Shown here: piece by piece, positions 7,469-48,285 of the stretch | Position numbering within the stretch: the stretch's first letter is position 1 | Layout of the letters: every line of letters starts with the position of its first letter | NCBI RefSeq assembly: GCF_001519055.1 | Contig: NZ_KQ954287.1 | Location: 1-64,000, forward strand | Length of the DNA: 64,000 nt | Reading direction: 5' to 3' | From: Novosphingobium sp. Fuku2-ISO-50 | Lineage (GTDB): Bacteria > Pseudomonadota > Alphaproteobacteria > Sphingomonadales > Sphingomonadaceae | Translations under genes and position numbers: made by a program | Notes under the pieces: model-generated | What the model was told of the DNA's origin: nothing | Database searches by the model: none | What the model saw: only the letters and a program-made list of their open reading frames with translations

Positions 7469-8998
7469 TTACACAAACATGAAATTGGCAGAGGAAAGCT
7501 GGCTCATGCTGACATGGTCGAGCACCAGATGATCATGCGCGTCATAGGTGATCACTACATTGCCGCCCGATTGCTGCATCGCACCTTCGAGCGCGGCGTA
7601 ATTGGCAAACAGGCTTTTGTCGAAGTGGATCACGTCGCCCGAGGCCGGGCTGGGCAGGAAACCGTCGATCGTTTCGTTTCCAAACCCCTTGTGAAAGACA
7701 AAAGTATCGTCATTGCCGCCGGCCTTGATCACATCGCCCTTTGCGCCGACGATCACCATGCCTGACGCGACAGCCTCGATCGTTTTCGAAGCGCCTGCCT
7801 TGGCCGCAGACGCCGTCGTCGCCAGGTGCGTGGCCTCGACGATCAACGGATCGGCGCCGACCGCCAGCGTGATCGACGCAACATTGTGATAGACCGCGAT
7901 CGGCGTCGTGCCCGAAATCGGATCATAGACCGCGATCGTTGCCTGCACATTGGCAAAGCGAATGGTGTCGGTATGGGTAACCGGCGCGATTTCACTGTGC
8001 GTGGTGTTGTTCCAGATGGTCTGTTCGTCCCAGATCACCACGTCGAAAACGTTGGTCGCCTTTTGCAGCGCCAGCGAATTGGTCGTCTTGTCCGCGCCGC
8101 CGATCGTGTAGGACACGGACCCCGGCGTAAAGGACGATGGCCCGCCGCCCAGGATTGTCGTCAGATCGTGCAGCGCGACGGCGGCCGGTTTGGCCGCGTT
8201 GCTGTAATCGAACAGGCCATAGTGATTGCCGGTGTTCGTGTTCGTCGCGTCGGGATAGGCATCGAGCAATTCATAAAGGATCACCGTCGCCGCCCCCGCC
8301 GACTTGGCATCGAAAATCATGTCGAGATCATAGATCGCCTGAACATGGGCATCGACGCCGCCCGATACGCCGGGCAAAGTCGAATAGCCGGACTCGGTCG
8401 CCACGAAAGGCTTGCCCGACGGGATCGAGGCGAGGTTGCTTTTCAGATAGGCCAGCGGCGCAGCGCCATTGTTCGCATAAGGATGGATCGCGGCATAATC
8501 GTAGCCCGTGGTCGACGAGGCCCCCGCATTCATCGTGTAGCTGTAGACCGTGGTGCCGTGCAGCACCGAACTGGCCCCGACATCGGCATAGAGCGCATTT
8601 TGAAACGCGATCGCCGCCGGGGCCCCGGTCAGGCCATTGTAGCTCGCCCCGAAATTGTTGATTTCGTTGGGCCCCTCGATCGCGACGAGCGCGCCGGGAT
8701 GGGCGGCTGCGAAATTGGCCATCTGGGTCACGCTGTTGGCCGGGGTGTTGTTGGTATAAAGCAGCATGTCAAAGCGGATGCCGCTGCTGGCGGCGAGATT
8801 ATAGGCCGCCTGCCCCTGCATTCCTGTCCAATAGGCTGCCGTGCGGATGAGGCTGACCCCTATATATTTCAGGTCAGCCAGGACGTTCTGGATATTGGCA
8901 TATTTGCCGTCGGTATAATCGATCTCGGCATCGATACCGATCGAGGCGACGAAGCTGGCTGCGCTGGCGACGGTTGCTTTGGTCATGACCGCCAACAT
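7469..8998 (-). CDS. glycoside hydrolase-like protein with RTX-type C-terminus
   Basis: The 509-aa protein has no N-terminal signal peptide. Residues of about 15-290 look like a (beta/alpha)8 clan-A glycosidase: an EGPNE motif places a probable acid/base at Glu112, and ATESG places a probable nucleophile at Glu202. The C-terminal ~100 residues (GGNDDTFVFHKGFGNETIDGF, then a FxxxHxxL block) resemble the calcium-binding RTX/M10-serralysin-type tail recognised by type I secretion systems. That arrangement suggests export of a polysaccharide-active enzyme through an ABC/TolC route (inference). No T1SS genes are in the window. Alternative ATGs lie at 8998 and 8986. The polysaccharide target cannot be predicted. 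Confidence 0.75.
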   Translation of the reverse strand: MLAVMTKATVASAASFVASIGIDAEIDYTDGKYANIQNVLADLKYIGVSLIRTAAYWTGMQGQAAYNLAASSGIRFDMLLYTNNTPANSVTQMANFAAAHPGALVAIEGPNEINNFGASYNGLTGAPAAIAFQNALYADVGASSVLHGTTVYSYTMNAGASSTTGYDYAAIHPYANNGAAPLAYLKSNLASIPSGKPFVATESGYSTLPGVSGGVDAHVQAIYDLDMIFDAKSAGAATVILYELLDAYPDATNTNTGNHYGLFDYSNAAKPAAVALHDLTTILGGGPSSFTPGSVSYTIGGADKTTNSLALQKATNVFDVVIWDEQTIWNNTTHSEIAPVTHTDTIRFANVQATIAVYDPISGTTPIAVYHNVASITLAVGADPLIVEATHLATTASAAKAGASKTIEAVASGMVIVGAKGDVIKAGGNDDTFVFHKGFGNETIDGFLPSPASGDVIHFDKSLFANYAALEGAMQQSGGNVVITYDAHDHLVLDHVSMSQLSSANFMFV

Positions 8999-9017
8999 AG
9001 GTCATAACCGTTTTTAA

Positions 9018-9089
9018 CAATTGTATATGACTGGTAAACGCGATTTCAGGTCAATTACAATTCATTGCAAACAAATAAATCAATTGTAT
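9018..9089. promoter_or_regulatory. AT-rich intergenic region with repeated CAATTGTAT boxes
   Basis: The 105 bp between the glycosidase-like gene and the GMC oxidoreductase stop is far more AT-rich than its surroundings. CAATTGTAT occurs at 9018-9026 and again at 9081-9089. A related CAATTACAA lies at 9052-9060. The repeats sit upstream of the minus-strand glycosidase gene, so they are candidate promoter or regulator-binding elements. No specific factor is recognised. Confidence 0.35.
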
Positions 9090-9103
9090 TCATCCTGATT
9101 TTG

Positions 9104-11011
9104 TTACGTTACATCGATAAACGACTTGCCCTCTTTTGCCAAGCCCCACTCAGCGGGATCGATTACAGGATCTGGCGATGCAGACCCGGCCTCCTTTTCG
9201 GTCAGCATAAAGCCCGCATCAGGCGCGATCGGCCCGCCAACCGGCTCCGCATCGGGCGCCGGGACATCGCCCGGAACCGACAGCGAGGCCGCAACCGGCT
9301 CAGGGTGCGCCGCGATATGATCGGCCAGGCGGATCGCCATGGCCAGGATCATCAGCGTCGGATTGGCATGGCCGATGGTTGGAAAGACCGACGCGCCGGC
9401 AATGTAGAGCCCGGCGATGCCATGGACCTGGCAATCGGGATCGACCACGCTCAGCGCCGGATCACGGCCCATCCGCGTGGTTCCCGCGGTATGCGCCATA
9501 TCGCGCAGCACCAGCCGGTTGCTCGCCCGTTGCGCGACGGCGTCGATCGGAACGAATCCGGCGATCCCGGCGCGGCGCAGATCCGCGATCAGGAGGTGGG
9601 CGCCTTTCAGCATCGCCTCTGCGCTCGCCGCGCCCGGCTCCCACCGGATGCTGGCGCGGGGCAGGCCGAGCGGATCGCACTCACGCGCAAGCGTAACCCG
9701 GTTGGCCGGGTCGGCGCCCTGCTCGGCAATCAGTTCGAGATGCAGGCGATCGAGCTTGCGACTGCCGCCTTGCGCGAGATAGTCGCGCGCGACAAAATCG
9801 GCGTTGATCCACACCGCCGCATCGACCACGACACGCTTGAACGCATCGGGCACGCGCGGGCTTTCGAGCAGCTTGCGCCCCAGCGCCGAAGCGATCGTCG
9901 CGCCATTGCCCAGCACGACGCGCAAGTCGGCCCAAACCTGCCCGCTGCGCCCGCGCAAAAGACGCCCGAACGCGGCGACCGGATCGTCGCGCGACAGCTC
10001 GACTGCGGCAAAGGCCGCCATGTTCGGCAGGCGCTCGCGCTCCTGGCAATCCGGGCGCAGCGCCAGACCATGCGAATACATATAGATGCGATGCCCCCGC
10101 CGCAGCGGGAAAAAGCCCATCAACCGCGCAGCCGCCGCGCAGCCCGCCCCCTCGATCGTGCCGATCCGGACTGTCGGATGGTCCATCAGGTATCGGCCGA
10201 TCGCGGGCAAGCCTTGCGCCCCGGCCACCCCCGGCCGATCCAGTTCCGACAGCAGGAGCAGGCGCGCATTCTCGATCGCCCCGGCGGCCAGCACCACGTG
10301 CCTGGCAGACAAGACCGCGCGCCGTCCGCTGCCGAGCGATGACAGGCATTCCACGCCATCCAGCCGCCCCTGTGCAACCCGCACCCGCGCCGCCGTGGCG
10401 TTCGTCACCACGGTCACCCCGGCAAGGTCGTCATGGCGCAAATCATCACCCATGCGCGTCACGTCGGTCACTTTGCGGCGCGACCGCGCAAATTGCCAGA
10501 AATGCGAATCAAATGCCGCCATCCGCGCCACGCCTTCGGGGCGCACGGCGTCGCGGTCCGCCTCGCAGGCCGCTTCGTTCAACAAGGGCCCGAGTTCGAG
10601 ATGCTGCGCGGCGCGATCGACGAAGGGCGCCAGATCCCCGTGCGCAATCGGCCAGCCGGTTTCCGCCAGCCAGGCCCGGGGCGCGAAATCCGCAGGCGCA
10701 AACGGCGCAACTTTGCCCGCCCACGCCACAGTCGATCCGCCCAGCACCCGGTTGCGCACGCCAAACTGCTGCCCTTCGGCAGACCAGAAGCGCATCTGCG
10801 GCGCATGCCAGTCCTGCCTTGCGCGGCGCACCGCCGGATCGCCGAGCGTCCCCGTCGCCTCGACCGCGTTGAGCGCCTCGTGCGCAGCGGTTTCCTCAAA
10901 GCCGCCGCTCTCGACCAGACAAACGCGCAAACCGCGCGCGGACAATTCGCGGGTCATGACGATTCCGGCCGCCCCGCCGCCGATGATCAGGACATCATGA
11001 TCGGTCAGCAC
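9104..11011 (-). CDS. GMC-family FAD oxidoreductase
   Basis: This is a glucose-methanol-choline oxidoreductase of about 635 aa. The FAD dinucleotide-binding motif (DVLIIGGGAAGIV followed by CLVESGG) is at the N-terminus. The GMC C-terminal block includes AHTAGTTRMG and the IGHANPTLM active-site region. The last ~70 residues are a Pro/Ala-rich extension not typical of the family. The start is uncertain: GTG at 11011 sits directly before the FAD motif, but in-frame coding potential (ITRYFDFDRAD) continues a little upstream and reaches a TTG at 11194. An AT-rich palindrome at 11135-11153 inside that extension argues for a start downstream of it. Substrate unknown; family members oxidise alcohols and sugars. 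Confidence 0.88.
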   Translation of the reverse strand: MLTDHDVLIIGGGAAGIVMTRELSARGLRVCLVESGGFEETAAHEALNAVEATGTLGDPAVRRARQDWHAPQMRFWSAEGQQFGVRNRVLGGSTVAWAGKVAPFAPADFAPRAWLAETGWPIAHGDLAPFVDRAAQHLELGPLLNEAACEADRDAVRPEGVARMAAFDSHFWQFARSRRKVTDVTRMGDDLRHDDLAGVTVVTNATAARVRVAQGRLDGVECLSSLGSGRRAVLSARHVVLAAGAIENARLLLLSELDRPGVAGAQGLPAIGRYLMDHPTVRIGTIEGAGCAAAARLMGFFPLRRGHRIYMYSHGLALRPDCQERERLPNMAAFAAVELSRDDPVAAFGRLLRGRSGQVWADLRVVLGNGATIASALGRKLLESPRVPDAFKRVVVDAAVWINADFVARDYLAQGGSRKLDRLHLELIAEQGADPANRVTLARECDPLGLPRASIRWEPGAASAEAMLKGAHLLIADLRRAGIAGFVPIDAVAQRASNRLVLRDMAHTAGTTRMGRDPALSVVDPDCQVHGIAGLYIAGASVFPTIGHANPTLMILAMAIRLADHIAAHPEPVAASLSVPGDVPAPDAEPVGGPIAPDAGFMLTEKEAGSASPDPVIDPAEWGLAKEGKSFIDVT

Positions 11012-34214: not shown

Positions 34215-35363
34215 TCAATAGAAGTCGGGGCTGGTGCGCACTTCGGCCAGCGTGATCCGGCCCGACAGAACTTTCATCACCCAGAACGTATAAGCGAGCA
34301 CGATCGGCAGGAAGACGATCGTCACCAGCAGCATGATGAACAGCGTCAGATGGCTCGACGAAGCGTTCCACACCGTCAGGCTCGACCGCGGATCGATCGA
34401 ACTGGGCAGGATGAAGGGAAACATCGACAGGCCGACAGTGGCGATGATCCCGGTCGTCGCCAGCGCGGTGCCGACAAAGTTCATCCATCCGCGCCGCGCC
34501 GAAATCCCGGCGAGCGCGAGCAGCGAACCGACAAAGCCGAGCACAGGCGCCGCGATCATCCACGGATGCGCGCCGTAATTGTCCAGCCAGGCCCCCGGCG
34601 CGGCGACGCTCGGCGACATCAGCGGATTCGATGGCCCTTCGACATCGACGGCGCCGACAAGATGCATCCCCATGCCCGATTTCGCCACCATCAGTCCGCC
34701 CAGCGCAAACAGCACCATGCTGACCATCGCGGCAATCCGCCCGATGGCGCGGGCACGGACCAGAACCGGGCCTTCCTCGGCCTTGACCGCCAGCCAGCCC
34801 GCGCCGTGCAGCGCCAGCATCGCCACCGACAACAGCCCGGTCAGCACGGTAAACGGCGTGAACAGCCCGAGCAGCGAGCCTTCGTAGGTCATGCGCAGAT
34901 CGCTGTCGAAGCGGAACGGCGCACCGACCAGGACATTGCCCACGGCCACGCCGAACACCAAAGCGGGGACAAATCCGCCGACGAACAGCGCCCAGTCCCA
35001 GCGCGCGCGCCAGGCGGCATCGGGGCGTTTCGAGCGGTACTTGAACGCCACCGGGCGCAGGATCAGCGATGCCAGCACGAGGAACATGGCCAGGTAAAAG
35101 CCCGAAAAGCTGACCGCATAGACGAACGGCCAGGCGGCAAAAATCGCCCCGCCGCCGAGGATCAGCCAGACCTGGTGTCCTTCCCAGTGCGGCGCGATCG
35201 TGTTGATCGTCAGGCGCCGTTCCTCGTCATTGCGCGCCACAAACGGCAGCAGCGCGGCGACGCCAAGGTCATAACCGTCGGTCAGCGCAAAACCGATCAG
35301 CAGCACGCCGAGCAGCGCCCACCAGATCAGGCGCAAGGTTTCATAGTCGAGCGGGATATGCAT
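34215..35363 (-). CDS. cydB: cytochrome bd ubiquinol oxidase subunit II
   Basis: The 382-aa protein begins MHIPLDYETLRLIWWALLGVLLIGFALTDG-like, with the conserved DGYDLGVAALLPF and WEGHQVWLILGGGAIFAAWP motifs of CydB and about eight further helices. It pairs with CydA to form the quinol oxidase. The ATG at 35361-35363 lies 13 bp after the cydA stop. Confidence 0.97.
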   Translation of the reverse strand: MHIPLDYETLRLIWWALLGVLLIGFALTDGYDLGVAALLPFVARNDEERRLTINTIAPHWEGHQVWLILGGGAIFAAWPFVYAVSFSGFYLAMFLVLASLILRPVAFKYRSKRPDAAWRARWDWALFVGGFVPALVFGVAVGNVLVGAPFRFDSDLRMTYEGSLLGLFTPFTVLTGLLSVAMLALHGAGWLAVKAEEGPVLVRARAIGRIAAMVSMVLFALGGLMVAKSGMGMHLVGAVDVEGPSNPLMSPSVAAPGAWLDNYGAHPWMIAAPVLGFVGSLLALAGISARRGWMNFVGTALATTGIIATVGLSMFPFILPSSIDPRSSLTVWNASSSHLTLFIMLLVTIVFLPIVLAYTFWVMKVLSGRITLAEVRTSPDFY

Positions 35364-35376
35364 GTGCCTGTCTCCC

Positions 35377-36945
35377 TTATTCGGCGGGAAGCGGAGCAAG
35401 GCCGTCGGCAAAGCCGTGGTCCTCGCCGGGGGCGTGTTCGATCGGTCCCTTGCGGATCGAGGCGATCATCAAGCGGACCTCGATCACCGCCAAAGTGCCA
35501 TAGAGCGCGGTAAAGCCGATGATCGTCGCCCAGACCTGGGACACGGTCAGCGAAGAGGCGCCCAGGAACGTCGGCAACACGCCGTCGACCGCCCAGGGCT
35601 GGCGCCCGATTTCGGCCAGTACCCAGCCGCCCTCGATCGCGAGCCACGGCAGCGGCATCATCACCACCGCCAGCCTGAGGAACCAGCGCTTCGAAAAATG
35701 GCAGGCCGACGCGCACCAGAAAGCCGCAGCGAAATAGGCGATGAAGCCAAAGCCAAGCCCCGCCATCCCCCGGAACAGCCAGAACATCACCGGCACATTG
35801 GGAATGGTATCGGCAGCGGCGCGCAGGATCTGGTCATTGGTCGCCTGACGCGGGTCAGCGACATAGCGCTTCAACAACAAGGCAAAGCCGATGTCGGCCT
35901 TGTGCGCCTCGAACGCGGCCCGCGCCGACAAGTCGAAGCGGTTCGCTTTCAGCTTTTGCACCGCGTCATAGGCGATGATCCCGCTGCTGATGCGCTGATC
36001 GGCGCGCAGCACCAGATCGTCGATCCCGGTCACTTCGCCCGACAGGCTGCGCGTCGAAATCAGGCCCAGCACATAGGGCACCTGAATCGCATAGCGGGTC
36101 TTGTGCGCGGCGACATCGGGCACGCCGAACAGAGTGAGCCCGGCAGGCGCGTCTTCGGTCTTCCACATCGCCTCGATCGAGGCGAGCTTCATCTTCTGGT
36201 TGTCGGTCAGCGCATAGCCGCTTTCATCGCCCAGCACGACGACCGAAAGCGACGAGGCCAGCCCGAACGCGGCGGCGACCATCATCGAGCGGCGCGCGAC
36301 ATTGGTCCATTTTCCGCGCAGCAGATAGATCGCCGAAACCCCCATGACGAAAGTCGCGGCGCAGACATAGCCCGCGCTGACGGTGTGGACGAATTTCGCC
36401 TGCGCCACCGGATTGAACAGCACGTCCTTGAAATCGGTGACTTCCATCCGCATCGTCGCGGGATTGAAGCTCGCCCCGACCGGGTTCTGCATCCAGCCGT
36501 TGGCAATCAGGATCCACAGCGCCGAAAGGTTGCTGCCAAGCGCGACCAGAAACGTGACCACCAGATGCTGCACCCGGCTCAACCGGTCCCAACCGAAGAA
36601 CATCAGCCCGATCATCGTGGCTTCGAGGAAAAAGGCCATCAGCCCCTCGATCGCCAGCGGCGCGCCGAAAATGTCGCCGACATAGTGCGCGTAATAGGCC
36701 CAATTGGTGCCGAATTCGAATTCCATGGTCAGCCCGGTGGCCACGCCGAGCACGAAATTGATGCCGAACAGCCGCGCCCAGAACCGGGTGATCACACGCC
36801 AGATCGGGCGCTTGGTGATGACATAGATGCTTTCCATGATCACCAGCATGAACGACAGGCCGAGCGTGAGCGGCACGAACAGAAAATGGTACATCGCGGT
36901 CAGTGCAAATTGCAGCCGCGAAAGTTCGATGACAGCCATGTCCAT
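35377..36945 (-). CDS. cydA: cytochrome bd ubiquinol oxidase subunit I
   Basis: The 522-aa CydA is E. coli-like in length, with a long Q-loop. Haem ligands are visible: His20 (AMYHFLF), the b558 His in FVHTVSAGYV, and the b558 Met in VPVMFWLFRGM. The GRQPW signature sits near the C-terminal helices and KxxxE residues are in the Q-loop region. The enzyme reduces O2 with quinol in the inner membrane with high oxygen affinity and tolerates sulfide, NO and peroxide in known cases. Its upstream region carries an AT-rich palindrome. Confidence 0.97.
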   Translation of the reverse strand: MDMAVIELSRLQFALTAMYHFLFVPLTLGLSFMLVIMESIYVITKRPIWRVITRFWARLFGINFVLGVATGLTMEFEFGTNWAYYAHYVGDIFGAPLAIEGLMAFFLEATMIGLMFFGWDRLSRVQHLVVTFLVALGSNLSALWILIANGWMQNPVGASFNPATMRMEVTDFKDVLFNPVAQAKFVHTVSAGYVCAATFVMGVSAIYLLRGKWTNVARRSMMVAAAFGLASSLSVVVLGDESGYALTDNQKMKLASIEAMWKTEDAPAGLTLFGVPDVAAHKTRYAIQVPYVLGLISTRSLSGEVTGIDDLVLRADQRISSGIIAYDAVQKLKANRFDLSARAAFEAHKADIGFALLLKRYVADPRQATNDQILRAAADTIPNVPVMFWLFRGMAGLGFGFIAYFAAAFWCASACHFSKRWFLRLAVVMMPLPWLAIEGGWVLAEIGRQPWAVDGVLPTFLGASSLTVSQVWATIIGFTALYGTLAVIEVRLMIASIRKGPIEHAPGEDHGFADGLAPLPAE

Positions 36946-45815: not shown

Positions 45816-45924
45816 GCGTATTGTCCGAGGCTTGTATCTGATCCGAATCAAGGACAACCATGCCAAAATGGGCCATAGGCCAACGCGGGGACTACGATGC
45901 AATCGCTGGACAGGGGGAAATCCG

Positions 45925-47286
45925 ATGCCAAACGCATCCAACACAAAACGAACTGCACTGCAGCATACCAAGCTGGCACTCCGTCTGGCGCTGCCCACGG
46001 CAGCTTGCCTCGGTGCGCTGGCGCTGACGCGGCCCGCTGCGGCCGTGCCGAGCTTTGCCGACCAGACCGGGCAACCGTGCCAGGCCTGCCATGTCGGCGG
46101 TTTCGGGCCGCAACTCACCACATTCGGGCGCGAATTCAAGCTGAACGGTTATACGATGCGCGCCAAGGCGTTCAACGTGCCGCTGTCGGCGATGGCGATC
46201 GGGGCATACACCCACACCAAGGCCGATCAGGTGCCCGCGCCGGACAACCTGAAGCCCAACGACAATTTCACGCTGGATCAGGTCGGCTTATTCCTCGGCG
46301 GCGGGATCGGCGAGCATGTCGGCGGGCTGGCGCAGGTCACCTACGACGGTATCGGCAAAGTCTGGACTTGGGACAATATCGATATCCGCGTGGTCAATCA
46401 GGGCAAGCTGTTCGGCAAGGACGCGACCTACGGGTTTGACATCAACAACAACCCGACCGCACAGGACGTGTTCAACACCACGCCGGCTTGGGGCTTCCCC
46501 TATACCGGCGGCGCCGTGGCACAGACCCCGGGCGCGGCGACCTTGGTCAACGGCGCGCTGGCGCAGCAAGTGCTCGGCGTGTCGGCTTATGCCTGGATCG
46601 ACCACCACTTCTATCTTGAGGCCGGCGGCTATACGTCCCCGGCGTCGGGCACGCTGCAATGGCTGGGCGCTGATCCGATCGGGATGGGCGACATCCATGG
46701 TGTCGCGCCCTATGGCCGCATCGCCTATCAGCGCGATCTGGGCAACGGCACGTTGCATGTCGGCGCGCTTGCCCTGAAGGCGGCGATCAATCCCGGGCGC
46801 GACCGTTCAACCGGGGTGACCGACCATTACACCGATCTCGGGGTCGATGGTTCGTACATGCTGCCCTTGGGCAAGGGCGACACTTTTACCCTTCAGGCCC
46901 GCTATATCCATGAAGCCCAGAGCCTGCAGGCGAGCTGCGCGCTCAGCGAAATGCCGCTCGATTGCGCGAACGTCAACATTGGCGAGCTGCGTGGCGACGT
47001 GGCCTATAACTGGCACGGCAAAGTCGGACTGACGCTCACCGGCTTTACCACGACAGGATCGGTCAACAACTTCGTCTATGCCGGCAACACGATTGACCGC
47101 CCCGACAGCAACGGGGTCATGGGGCAAATCGACTTCACCCCCTGGGGCGCGGGCAATGGTCCACTCGGCCCGCTGGTCAATCTGCGCGTCGGCGCGCAAT
47201 ACACCGCATACCGGCAGTTCGACGGCACCACAGCCAACGCCAGTGACAACAACTCGCTCCGCCTGTTTACCTGGGTCGCGTTCTGA
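45925..47286 (+). CDS. Cyc2-like fused monoheme cytochrome-outer membrane porin
   Basis: The 453-aa protein has a signal peptide (about 1-40, ending RPAAA), then PSFADQTGQPCQACHVGGF with one c-type haem site (Cys52, Cys55, His56), a linker (LTTFGREFKLNGYTM), and about 360 residues of alternating amphipathic, Gly/aromatic-rich strands that end in the outer-membrane signature LFTWVAF (C-terminal Phe). This single-haem-plus-barrel layout and the ...SFAxQTGxxCxxCH...FGRxFKxxGY pattern match, from memory, the Cyc2 family of fused cytochrome-porins, some of which oxidise Fe(II). GGGGG precedes ATG 45925. No partner cytochromes are nearby. Confidence 0.75.
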   Translation: MPNASNTKRTALQHTKLALRLALPTAACLGALALTRPAAAVPSFADQTGQPCQACHVGGFGPQLTTFGREFKLNGYTMRAKAFNVPLSAMAIGAYTHTKADQVPAPDNLKPNDNFTLDQVGLFLGGGIGEHVGGLAQVTYDGIGKVWTWDNIDIRVVNQGKLFGKDATYGFDINNNPTAQDVFNTTPAWGFPYTGGAVAQTPGAATLVNGALAQQVLGVSAYAWIDHHFYLEAGGYTSPASGTLQWLGADPIGMGDIHGVAPYGRIAYQRDLGNGTLHVGALALKAAINPGRDRSTGVTDHYTDLGVDGSYMLPLGKGDTFTLQARYIHEAQSLQASCALSEMPLDCANVNIGELRGDVAYNWHGKVGLTLTGFTTTGSVNNFVYAGNTIDRPDSNGVMGQIDFTPWGAGNGPLGPLVNLRVGAQYTAYRQFDGTTANASDNNSLRLFTWVAF

Positions 47287-47379: not shown

Positions 47380-48285
47380 TTGCGCATAGTCCTGACGGGA
47401 TCATCAGGCCGATTGGGCCGACAACTCGCCGCCGCGTTACGCGCAAAGGATCACCGCGTTACCGGGCTCGACCTCGTGGCCGGGCCCGAAACGCAAGTTG
47501 TCGGCTCGGTCGCCAATCGCACCGTGGTCGACCGCGCCTTTGCCTTTGGCGCCGACGCCGTGATCCACACCGCCGCGCTGCACCAGCCCGACTTGCGAAA
47601 GGCCGCGATGCGCGCCTTTGTCGATGTCAACGTGAGCGGCACGCTCAATGTCCTCGAAGCCGCACGCGCCGCCGGCTGCACGCGGATCGTGCTGACATCG
47701 AGCACTTCGCTGATGATCGATGCCGCGCTCTCGGCGGGGCAGGCTGATCGCGCGCAATTCCTCGATGAAAGCCACGGCCCGCTGGCGCCGCGCAACATCT
47801 ATGGCGCGACCAAGCTGGCGGCGGAAAATCTCGCTCGCCTGTTTGCCGAAGGAAACATTGCGGTCGCCGCGTTGCGCCTGTCGCGCTTCTTCCCCGAAGA
47901 CGACAACGCCATCGGCCTGATCCGGGGCGACAATGCACGCGCCATCGAGCTGCTTCACCGCCGCCTGACGCTGACCGATGCCGTGGCCGCATGCATCCAT
48001 GCGCTCGATGCGGCAAAGCCCGGCTTTGCCGCCTATATCGTGTCCGCGCCGACCCCGTTCCGCCGCGACGAAGCGGTCGAGCTCAAACGCGACGCGGCCT
48101 CGGTCATCGCGCGCCACTTCCCCGATGCCGCCGCGCTGTTTGCCGCGCGCGGCTGGACTCTGCCGCGCTCGATCGACCGGGTCTATGATGCGGGCCTGAT
48201 CGAGCGCGAACTGGGCTTTCGCTGCACGACGGACTTTGCCGCGCTGCTCGAAAGCCTGCGCACAGGGGCGCCGCTTCCCTTTTGA
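47380..48285 (+). CDS. NAD-dependent epimerase/dehydratase (extended SDR)
   Basis: The 301-aa protein has the nucleotide motif GSSGRLG, catalytic Ser (SSTS) and YGATK (YxxxK) at about 147-151. It likely acts on a nucleotide-sugar or related substrate; not identified. The start is TTG 47380 (LRIVLTGSSG): no ATG is in frame upstream of the Rossmann motif, and GGGA lies about 10 bp before. It ends at a strong terminator facing rplA. Confidence 0.87.
   Translation: MRIVLTGSSGRLGRQLAAALRAKDHRVTGLDLVAGPETQVVGSVANRTVVDRAFAFGADAVIHTAALHQPDLRKAAMRAFVDVNVSGTLNVLEAARAAGCTRIVLTSSTSLMIDAALSAGQADRAQFLDESHGPLAPRNIYGATKLAAENLARLFAEGNIAVAALRLSRFFPEDDNAIGLIRGDNARAIELLHRRLTLTDAVAACIHALDAAKPGFAAYIVSAPTPFRRDEAVELKRDAASVIARHFPDAAALFAARGWTLPRSIDRVYDAGLIERELGFRCTTDFAALLESLRTGAPLPF

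Follow-up and report, generated by a model that had tools for sequence, protein, structure and literature searches.

Cyc2, a cytochrome fused to a porin, is a leading marker gene for microbial iron oxidation, and many of its homologues lie in organisms that are not known to oxidise iron. Homologues beyond the known iron oxidisers are described in the relevant sections of several papers (PMC8406198, PMC6344600, PMC10654088 and PMC10715153). The sections of PMC8406198 that deal with the protein give it a signal peptide, a single CXXCH haem site with PXL behind it, a length of more than 365 aa and a 16-strand barrel, for which OprO and OprP are named as porins, and they place a cytochrome c gene often beside cyc2. 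In the scheme set out there, the haem lies on the periplasmic side and is reduced by a dissolved donor that has come in through the pore; the electron then passes to a periplasmic carrier. The 1,593-sequence Cyc2 tree of the same sections was screened with the motif PXFAR[Q/K][T/Y], and it is stated that the function of homologues from other organisms needs verification and that genetic tests are challenging in iron oxidisers. According to the passages of PMC10715153 on Acetobacteraceae, Cyc2 homologues of that family often adjoin a mono- or di-haem cytochrome and come mainly from acidophiles and photosynthetic members. With regard to Novosphingobium, a count of 'oxidative EET' genes in MAGs from Trout Bog Lake gave 0-2 of them, and 0.86 of the MAGs were EET-positive (PMC12285243, Table 1). 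Since the pipeline used was largely FeGenie-based, we infer that these genes are probably Cyc2 homologues; they come from the same genus as the gene described here, and the part of PMC12285243 that scores them names neither gene, sequence, partner nor regulation. In the literature searched, the genus appears together with Cyc2 beyond that paper only in a reference. Cyc2 in Novosphingobium is therefore probably already in print, and the suggestion of a first-pass annotation, that the present locus was the best candidate for an undescribed system in its stretch of DNA, is not supported in view of these reports.

The gene examined here lies in a stretch of Novosphingobium DNA of 64,000 nucleotides, called the window below, and its features are collected in Table 1. 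In translation the open frame reads ...AAAVPSFADQTGQPCQACHVGGFGPQLTTFGREFKLNGYTM...LFTWVAF*; AVPSFADQTGQPCQACHVGGFGPQLTTFGREFKLNGYTM comes after the signal peptide, and the C-terminal residue is Phe. The sole CxxCH of the protein (C52, C55, H56) begins at mature residue 12 if cleavage occurs before V41, as judged by eye, and PQL at residues 62-64 corresponds to the PXL that soon follows CXXCH in Cyc2. Nine residues of this region are invariant in all 41 aligned homologues (C52, C55, H56, P62, L64, G68, F71, K72 and Y76), from which we conclude that the CxxCH did not arise by chance. The first-pass annotation had read the protein in the same way, as a haem site after a signal peptide joined to a barrel that ends in Phe, and the pattern that it gave for the family, SFAxQTGxxCxxCH...FGRxFKxxGYTM, fits as well.

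Table 1. Positions of the cyc2 features and of the cytochrome bd genes in the window.
Feature	Position	Strand	Basis or remark
cydB + cydA (cytochrome bd)	34215..36945	-	9.0 kb from cyc2; not counted as part of the system
FNR/FixK-type box CTGATCCGAATCAA, predicted	45838..45851	+	one mismatch to TTGAT-N4-ATCAA; 73 nt from box end to ATG
Ribosome-binding-site-like AGGGGG, ahead of ATG 45925	45912..45917	+	sequence
Cyc2-type fused cytochrome-porin gene, 453 aa	45925..47286	+	sequence, homologue alignment, tree, model
Signal peptide, residues 1-40, cleavage before V41 by eye	45925..46044	+	sequence
Haem domain, residues 41-78; motifs AVPSFADQT (from A40), CQACH, PQL	46045..46158	+	sequence, alignment
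CQACH haem-binding site, residues 52-56	46078..46092	+	sequence; C52, C55, H56 invariant in 41/41 rows
16-strand beta-barrel, residues 87-452	46183..47280	+	AlphaFold2; nearest solved folds are 16-strand porins
Perfect 15-bp inverted repeat, TTT loop, just past stop codon	47294..47326	+	-27.3 kcal/mol, z -7.9

Some further residues deserve mention. The distal haem ligand might be either the invariant Lys72 or Met90, which lies in the first strand and is present in 37 of 41 homologues; a Met near residue 90 was seen by eye in only about three of the seven full-motif rows. The cysteines C338 and C347 (window 46936-46965) are near-invariant in one 13-row homologue alignment and possibly form a disulphide in an outer loop. 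The segment N(Y/F)DGxG before the last strand is absent from the window copy (around 47227-47240) and kept in all 18 other rows of a separate alignment.

Database searches with the window protein gave no Pfam family, a single chance match in NCBIfam (E 0.12) and, with the single sequence, no match in the PDB. A profile search of the PDB was discarded, as its 15 weak matches (E 0.017 or worse) were confined to a small segment of a single, unrelated toxin chain and were attributed to chance. Homologues were found in 9 of 61 related genomes, namely in 8 of the 37 same-genus genomes (own genome included) and, weakly (E 1.9e-4), in one elsewhere in the order. They were likewise found in nine named genome loci (eight sphingomonads and one Opitutaceae), and on 9 of 72,556 plasmids; at wider range, 16 of 387 genomes from the class and 64 of 397 from the phylum gave a match. 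In a 54-row tree the window protein sits in nested clades, each with support of 100/100, first with Novosphingobium sp. FSW06-99, then among 12 Novosphingobium-type rows and then within 16 rows, 13 of which are sphingomonads. Comparing the profile of the 41 homologues with that of seven rows of family f174, all from that one family and carrying the full motif EA[IV]PAFARQTG..C..CH, gave 99.4% probability with E 3e-21 over 288 columns; the f174 rows presumably resemble Zetaproteobacteria. Tree, profile comparison and gene neighbourhoods together support a place of the window protein with the Cyc2-type cytochrome-porins, as the first-pass annotation had proposed on the basis of the layout.

The protein departs from the described family in its signature. 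Upstream of the haem site it reads AVPSFADQT, so that AXPXFAR[Q/K][T/Y] is missed by Asp46 in place of Arg, and since the signature Arg is replaced, we call the protein a Cyc2-like variant rather than a strict member. The Arg is absent from all 16 rows of the clade around the window protein (10 Asp, 4 Glu, 1 Ala and 1 Met) and from five further rows of the tree outside it. Among the 54 homologues, 33 keep the Arg and 23 carry the strict PXFAR[Q/K][T/Y], the other 10 Arg-keepers failing by other letters; in a second set of 25 loci, Arg is kept in 24 and replaced by Glu in one. The change to Asp may alter the redox potential or the partner. Set against Cyc2 as described in PMC8406198, the window gene shares the signal peptide, the single CxxCH with PxL behind it, the OprO/OprP-like 16-strand barrel and a length (453 aa) above 365 aa, whereas it has Asp for the signature Arg, falls outside the strict screening motif and is without a partner gene.

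The AlphaFold2 model has a mean pLDDT of 86.7 and a pTM of 0.81, with 16 strands within residues 87-452, which is the barrel that the first-pass annotation had expected from structure prediction. OprO (4rjx and 4rjw) and OprP (2o4v) rank 15, 18 and 20 among the Foldseek matches to the model, and VIA-align gave a Z of about 22 for OmpC/OmpF. These general and phosphate porins have the same 16-strand barrel, but they are without a haem segment and show about 7-14% identity among the matches listed. Averaged over ten-residue blocks, the confidence of the model is 47-49 for residues 31-50 and rises to 72-84 for residues 51-90, and the haem position is therefore a presumed one.

Neighbouring genes were delimited by a GC3-based script. 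Upstream of cyc2, Pfam matches identified radical SAM/TRAM, beta-lactamase-fold, FAD oxidoreductase and molybdopterin-binding-domain proteins, with one gene unmatched; downstream there is an epimerase gene, followed by that of ribosomal protein L1 on the opposite strand. No haem-protein ORF flanks cyc2 in the window, and PADLOC detected nothing there. Seven Novosphingobium-type loci (the window and L011, L012, L013, L014, L015 and L016) share one chromosomal region for cyc2, with the molybdopterin-binding-domain gene on its left and the rplA/rplK/nusG cluster on its right. Both flanks of the region are visible in the window, L014 and L015, the last of these being Novosphingobium percolationis c1; in L013 the left side is present and nusG lies further right, with other genes in between. 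The remaining contigs are shorter, L011 ending at the gene, L012 being without the left side and continuing for 477 nt after the gene, and L016 being without the 5' part. At none of the seven loci is there a cytochrome gene beside cyc2 where the contig shows the flanks, and in L017 and L019 cyc2 is also alone, at other sites. The region shows a minor local rearrangement: the epimerase gene (window 47380-48285) is 3' of cyc2 in the window, and L013 and L014 have it on the 5' side. The first-pass annotation had noted a gene that stands alone and a cytochrome bd operon 9 kb away. The former holds for the window locus but not for several relatives (see below); the latter was correctly placed (Table 1), but is probably unrelated to cyc2, because among 15 relative loci (flanks of up to 8 kb, several much shorter) there is no ORF for which cydA or cydB is the best match in the window, and because bd oxidase draws electrons from quinol, not from cytochrome c.

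In relatives, cyc2 is found with a range of electron carriers. A small cytochrome c gene overlaps its 3' end at four same-genus loci (L003, L004, L006 and L007) and on a Polymorphobacter plasmid (L020), and one lies nearby in L008, where cyc2 is in two pieces; in L005 there is no cytochrome c gene within the 1.5-kb flanks. In L130 (the gene of L031 with more flank; same class), a Glu-variant cyc2 is followed by genes for a HiPIP and a cupredoxin (8205-10571), possibly as a compact relay operon. Caballeronia L021 has a HiPIP before and a di-haem cytochrome c after cyc2, an A. ferrooxidans plasmid (L023) a c-type cytochrome after it, and Opitutaceae L018 Rieske and cytochrome b genes before it. 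By a rule that overlooks carriers without haem, 29 of 80 loci have a same-strand haem ORF with a signal-like stretch close to cyc2 (28 downstream, one upstream), compared with 3 of 80 for the opposite strand; no haem ORF is linked at 51 of 80, and many flanks are short (0.5-1.5 kb). These unlinked loci and the missing partner at the window make the case from gene neighbourhoods weaker. The single upstream case (L111) is a four-haem ORF 584 nt before cyc2. In the 8 of 10 regions that were inspected by eye for a rus-type operon, as an anchor to the tested A. ferrooxidans Cyc2, none was seen. In L125 (7394-7978; genome G360), an ORF between cyc2 and a cytochrome c gene has a sub-threshold hemerythrin match (E 0.0036) and is a possible link to iron or oxygen. 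The adjoining cytochrome c genes agree with the descriptions of Cyc2 in PMC8406198 and of the Acetobacteraceae proteins in PMC10715153. With the latter the window gene also shares an alphaproteobacterial host and differs in being without a partner and outside the acidophiles and photosynthetic members, a likeness drawn by description, only Acidiphilium plasmid copies having been compared by sequence.

The window's own genome (G000) contains candidates for the missing links. Six of its proteins match the partner cytochrome c, the best-scoring with 41% identity; among the matches listed (4 of 6), these class I cytochromes c are encoded on contigs C1, C2, C4 and C7, and the window on C3. Since a dedicated cytochrome c gene is absent in the window's Novosphingobium branch, we propose that a general cytochrome c takes its place. 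Three haem-copper oxidases are also encoded, and their ORFs suggest the types aa3, bo3 and cbb3. A HiPIP as the absent partner was dismissed, there being no match in G000 and one in 61 relatives, and so were photoferrotrophy and autotrophy, as G000 has no reaction-centre match and no match to the RuBisCO large chain. Eight genomes of the genus, the own one among them, have a Cyc2 match, and of these G036 alone has a reaction-centre match; the RuBisCO match in G020 is a 48-position fragment at a contig end.

As judged by its own ribosome-binding-like sequence and the inverted repeat at its 3' side (Table 1), cyc2 probably forms a single-gene transcript. The inverted repeat, which has no T tract, is a likely transcript end and is not among the terminator-like sites of a scan that required a T run; no sigma-70-like promoter was detected at the window cyc2. 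The predicted box upstream also has one mismatch to the consensus TTGA[CT]-N4-[GA]TCAA given for the sphingomonad Sphingopyxis granuli TFA in the section of PMC7713065 on such sites. Taken alone, the window box with its one mismatch is a weak candidate; the whole window holds five sites with at most one mismatch to TTGAT-N4-ATCAA (0.9 expected), and with the looser sphingomonad consensus the count is nine (3.1 expected).

At the family level, cyc2 upstream regions are clearly enriched in FNR/FixK boxes. In a first set of 55 non-redundant 420-nt regions before the haem motif, perfect TTGAT-N4-ATCAA occurs in 6 and a site with at most one mismatch in 19, against means of 0.035 and 0.69 (maxima 1 and 3) in 200 dinucleotide shuffles and 0-1 and 0-4 sites in seven equal-length control windows in the gene and its flanks (44-55 loci each). 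The 60 rows behind this set left out L001, L002, L007-L010 and L027, each of them a duplicate, a weak match or a gene that is cut or in two pieces, as well as L016, L042, L045, L062, L063 and L065, where the motif pattern had no match; removal of L070, L071 and L072 (cut stretches) and of L025 and L067 (near-duplicates) brought them to 55. In the second set, for which pattern and span had been fixed beforehand, 3 of 25 loci have a perfect box and 7 of 25 one with at most one mismatch, compared with 0.03 and 0.52 expected from 300 shuffles (maxima 1 and 3) and 0 and 0-2 in seven control windows. These 25 were retained from 33 loci (L090-L122) after exclusion of L090, L096, L104, L105 and L120-L122 (genes already seen) and L113 (no motif match), and were drawn from the best-scoring matches only, 71 of 300 genomes having matches; a few genomes of the same order (L050, L052, L054, L057 and L058) were already part of the first set. 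The near-match of L116, one of the seven, falls within the coding region, only 24 nt ahead of the haem motif. It should be underlined that the box-bearing rows are not independent events, as the rows are related.

Among the 12 Novosphingobium-type rows, 8 have a site with at most one mismatch to the Sphingopyxis consensus (letter shuffles 0.23, maximum 2 in 300) and 4 to the stricter TTGAT-N4-ATCAA; by either pattern the box is absent in L004, L006, L013 and L015. G000 encodes two proteins with an N-terminal CxxCx7C and a Crp-type helix-turn-helix, one of them encoded at a distance of about 1.5 kb from cbb3. The cbb3 oxidase gene itself has TTGACCGGTGTCAA at its 5' end (L084 near 3094), an exact match to the sphingomonad consensus, as would be expected of an FNR target. 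A search for a common upstream footprint across six loci was abandoned, the window and L011 being similar throughout and the other four aligning poorly. In family f174, loci L064, L066 and L068, whose Cyc2 has the full motif, carry the variant (A/G)TGAT-N4-ATCAC, which differs from the FNR consensus at two positions; it precedes the haem motif by 216-221 nt, a distance similar to that of the other boxes. Among the matches listed in our literature search there was no report of FNR boxes at cyc2; in the part of PMC5506826 on RegA control in A. ferrooxidans, FNR appears in a reference only.

The gene is under purifying selection. Six pairwise dN/dS values (Nei-Gojobori) range from 0.08 to 0.29, the highest being that of the window against L011 (0.29). 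The others are 0.26 for the window and 0.24 for L013, both against L015, 0.13 for L012 against L014, 0.11 for L004 against L006, and 0.08 for L003 against L005, where a dS of 2.3 is near saturation. These values indicate that the lone cyc2 is constrained, although less strictly in the window lineage than in the partnered pair L004/L006.

We consider it rather probable that the Cyc2-type haem porin is an accessory electron inlet, probably induced at low oxygen, which feeds a general cytochrome c. The gene product would be a 16-strand outer-membrane porin with an N-terminal monohaem c-type cytochrome segment, presumably placed towards the periplasm. The haem would be reduced by small reduced donors that pass into the pore, the most likely being Fe(II) in solution or reduced humics, and the electron would go on to a periplasmic cytochrome c and from there to the aa3 or cbb3 oxidase. 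As its own transcription unit, cyc2 would probably be induced at low oxygen through the FNR/FixK-type site, and in a heterotroph it would provide an accessory energy input (lithoheterotrophy) or remove, or defend against, Fe(II) at low oxygen rather than serve autotrophic iron oxidation. More tentatively, and with less conviction than we would need to call it probable, the reading may extend to the family: Cyc2 haem porins may be widely FNR/FixK-regulated in Pseudomonadota, with the Asp/Glu lineage in heterotrophs as a lone, oxygen-switched inlet to the cytochrome c pool and cbb3 that the strict screening motif leaves out.

Electrons might also flow outwards, in which case the haem porin would discharge them at low oxygen onto an acceptor outside the cell, such as Fe(III) or humic quinones. 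FNR-type control would be equally apt for such a pathway, and the four-haem ORF of L111 would suit it, but at the window no haem-protein ORF flanks cyc2 and the neighbours in relatives are HiPIP, cupredoxin and small cytochromes c, carriers that commonly feed oxidases. The passage of PMC10715153 that cites Cyc2 isoforms in ferric iron reduction speaks for this direction, whereas the potential of 208 mV reported for Cyc2PV-1 in PMC8406198 suits electron uptake from Fe2+, and on balance we regard outward flow as unlikely. The electron carriers adjoining cyc2 in relatives of the 16-row clade also argue against a sensor or a metal or redox gate, in which the haem plug would govern passage through the porin with no net electron flow for energy. 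A conserved site with no dedicated partner, a single haem and a general-porin fold would fit such a role; no recurring regulator or receptor gene was seen beside the lone cyc2 (by eye, with names from the window's Pfam matches only), and we find this explanation quite improbable.

The absent partner gene, the N(Y/F)DGxG segment that is lost from the window copy and kept in 18 of 18 others, the window's dN/dS of 0.29 at the top of the six pairs and a two-piece match in genome G022 could each be taken as signs of a relic, an orphan cyc2 that outlived its partner and is now degrading. Yet the haem-domain invariants are all retained, dN/dS is far below 1 and seven loci keep cyc2 at one region, which makes decay a very improbable account. 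That the protein is an ordinary substrate porin with an accidental CxxCH, as its general-porin structural neighbours might suggest, is scarcely credible, since few positions of the protein are as conserved as CxxCH and its flanks, which do not vary in 41 of 41 rows. The inlet feeding a general cytochrome c is accordingly the reading that we retain.

Compared with the first-pass annotation, the analysis adds the substitution in the signature, the partner genes that relatives possess and the FNR-type box. With respect to the literature, three points seem new: that the substituted rows form a clade of their own, that the lone gene keeps a conserved site, and that FNR-type boxes occur across the family. 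The Arg-to-Asp/Glu clade means that screening by a text motif overlooks part of the Cyc2 family. Novosphingobium isolates are generally cultivable, and a heterotroph with a single lone cyc2 could permit a deletion test. The FNR-type boxes, if real, offer a simple low-oxygen expression test and could explain a role that is not seen in aerobic culture.

Two minor observations concern the gene records themselves. Two-piece copies of cyc2 occur in genome G022 (C59, 14559-15862, adjoining matches) and on an Acidiphilium multivorum plasmid (L025, 5890-7258, two ORFs), indicating occasional loss of the gene. Of seven plasmid records, two have the cyc2-like start annotated just after or beyond the CxxCH (L021, 6067-6082; L022, 6100-6259), so that the deposited proteins are without the haem site and would fail haem-motif filters.
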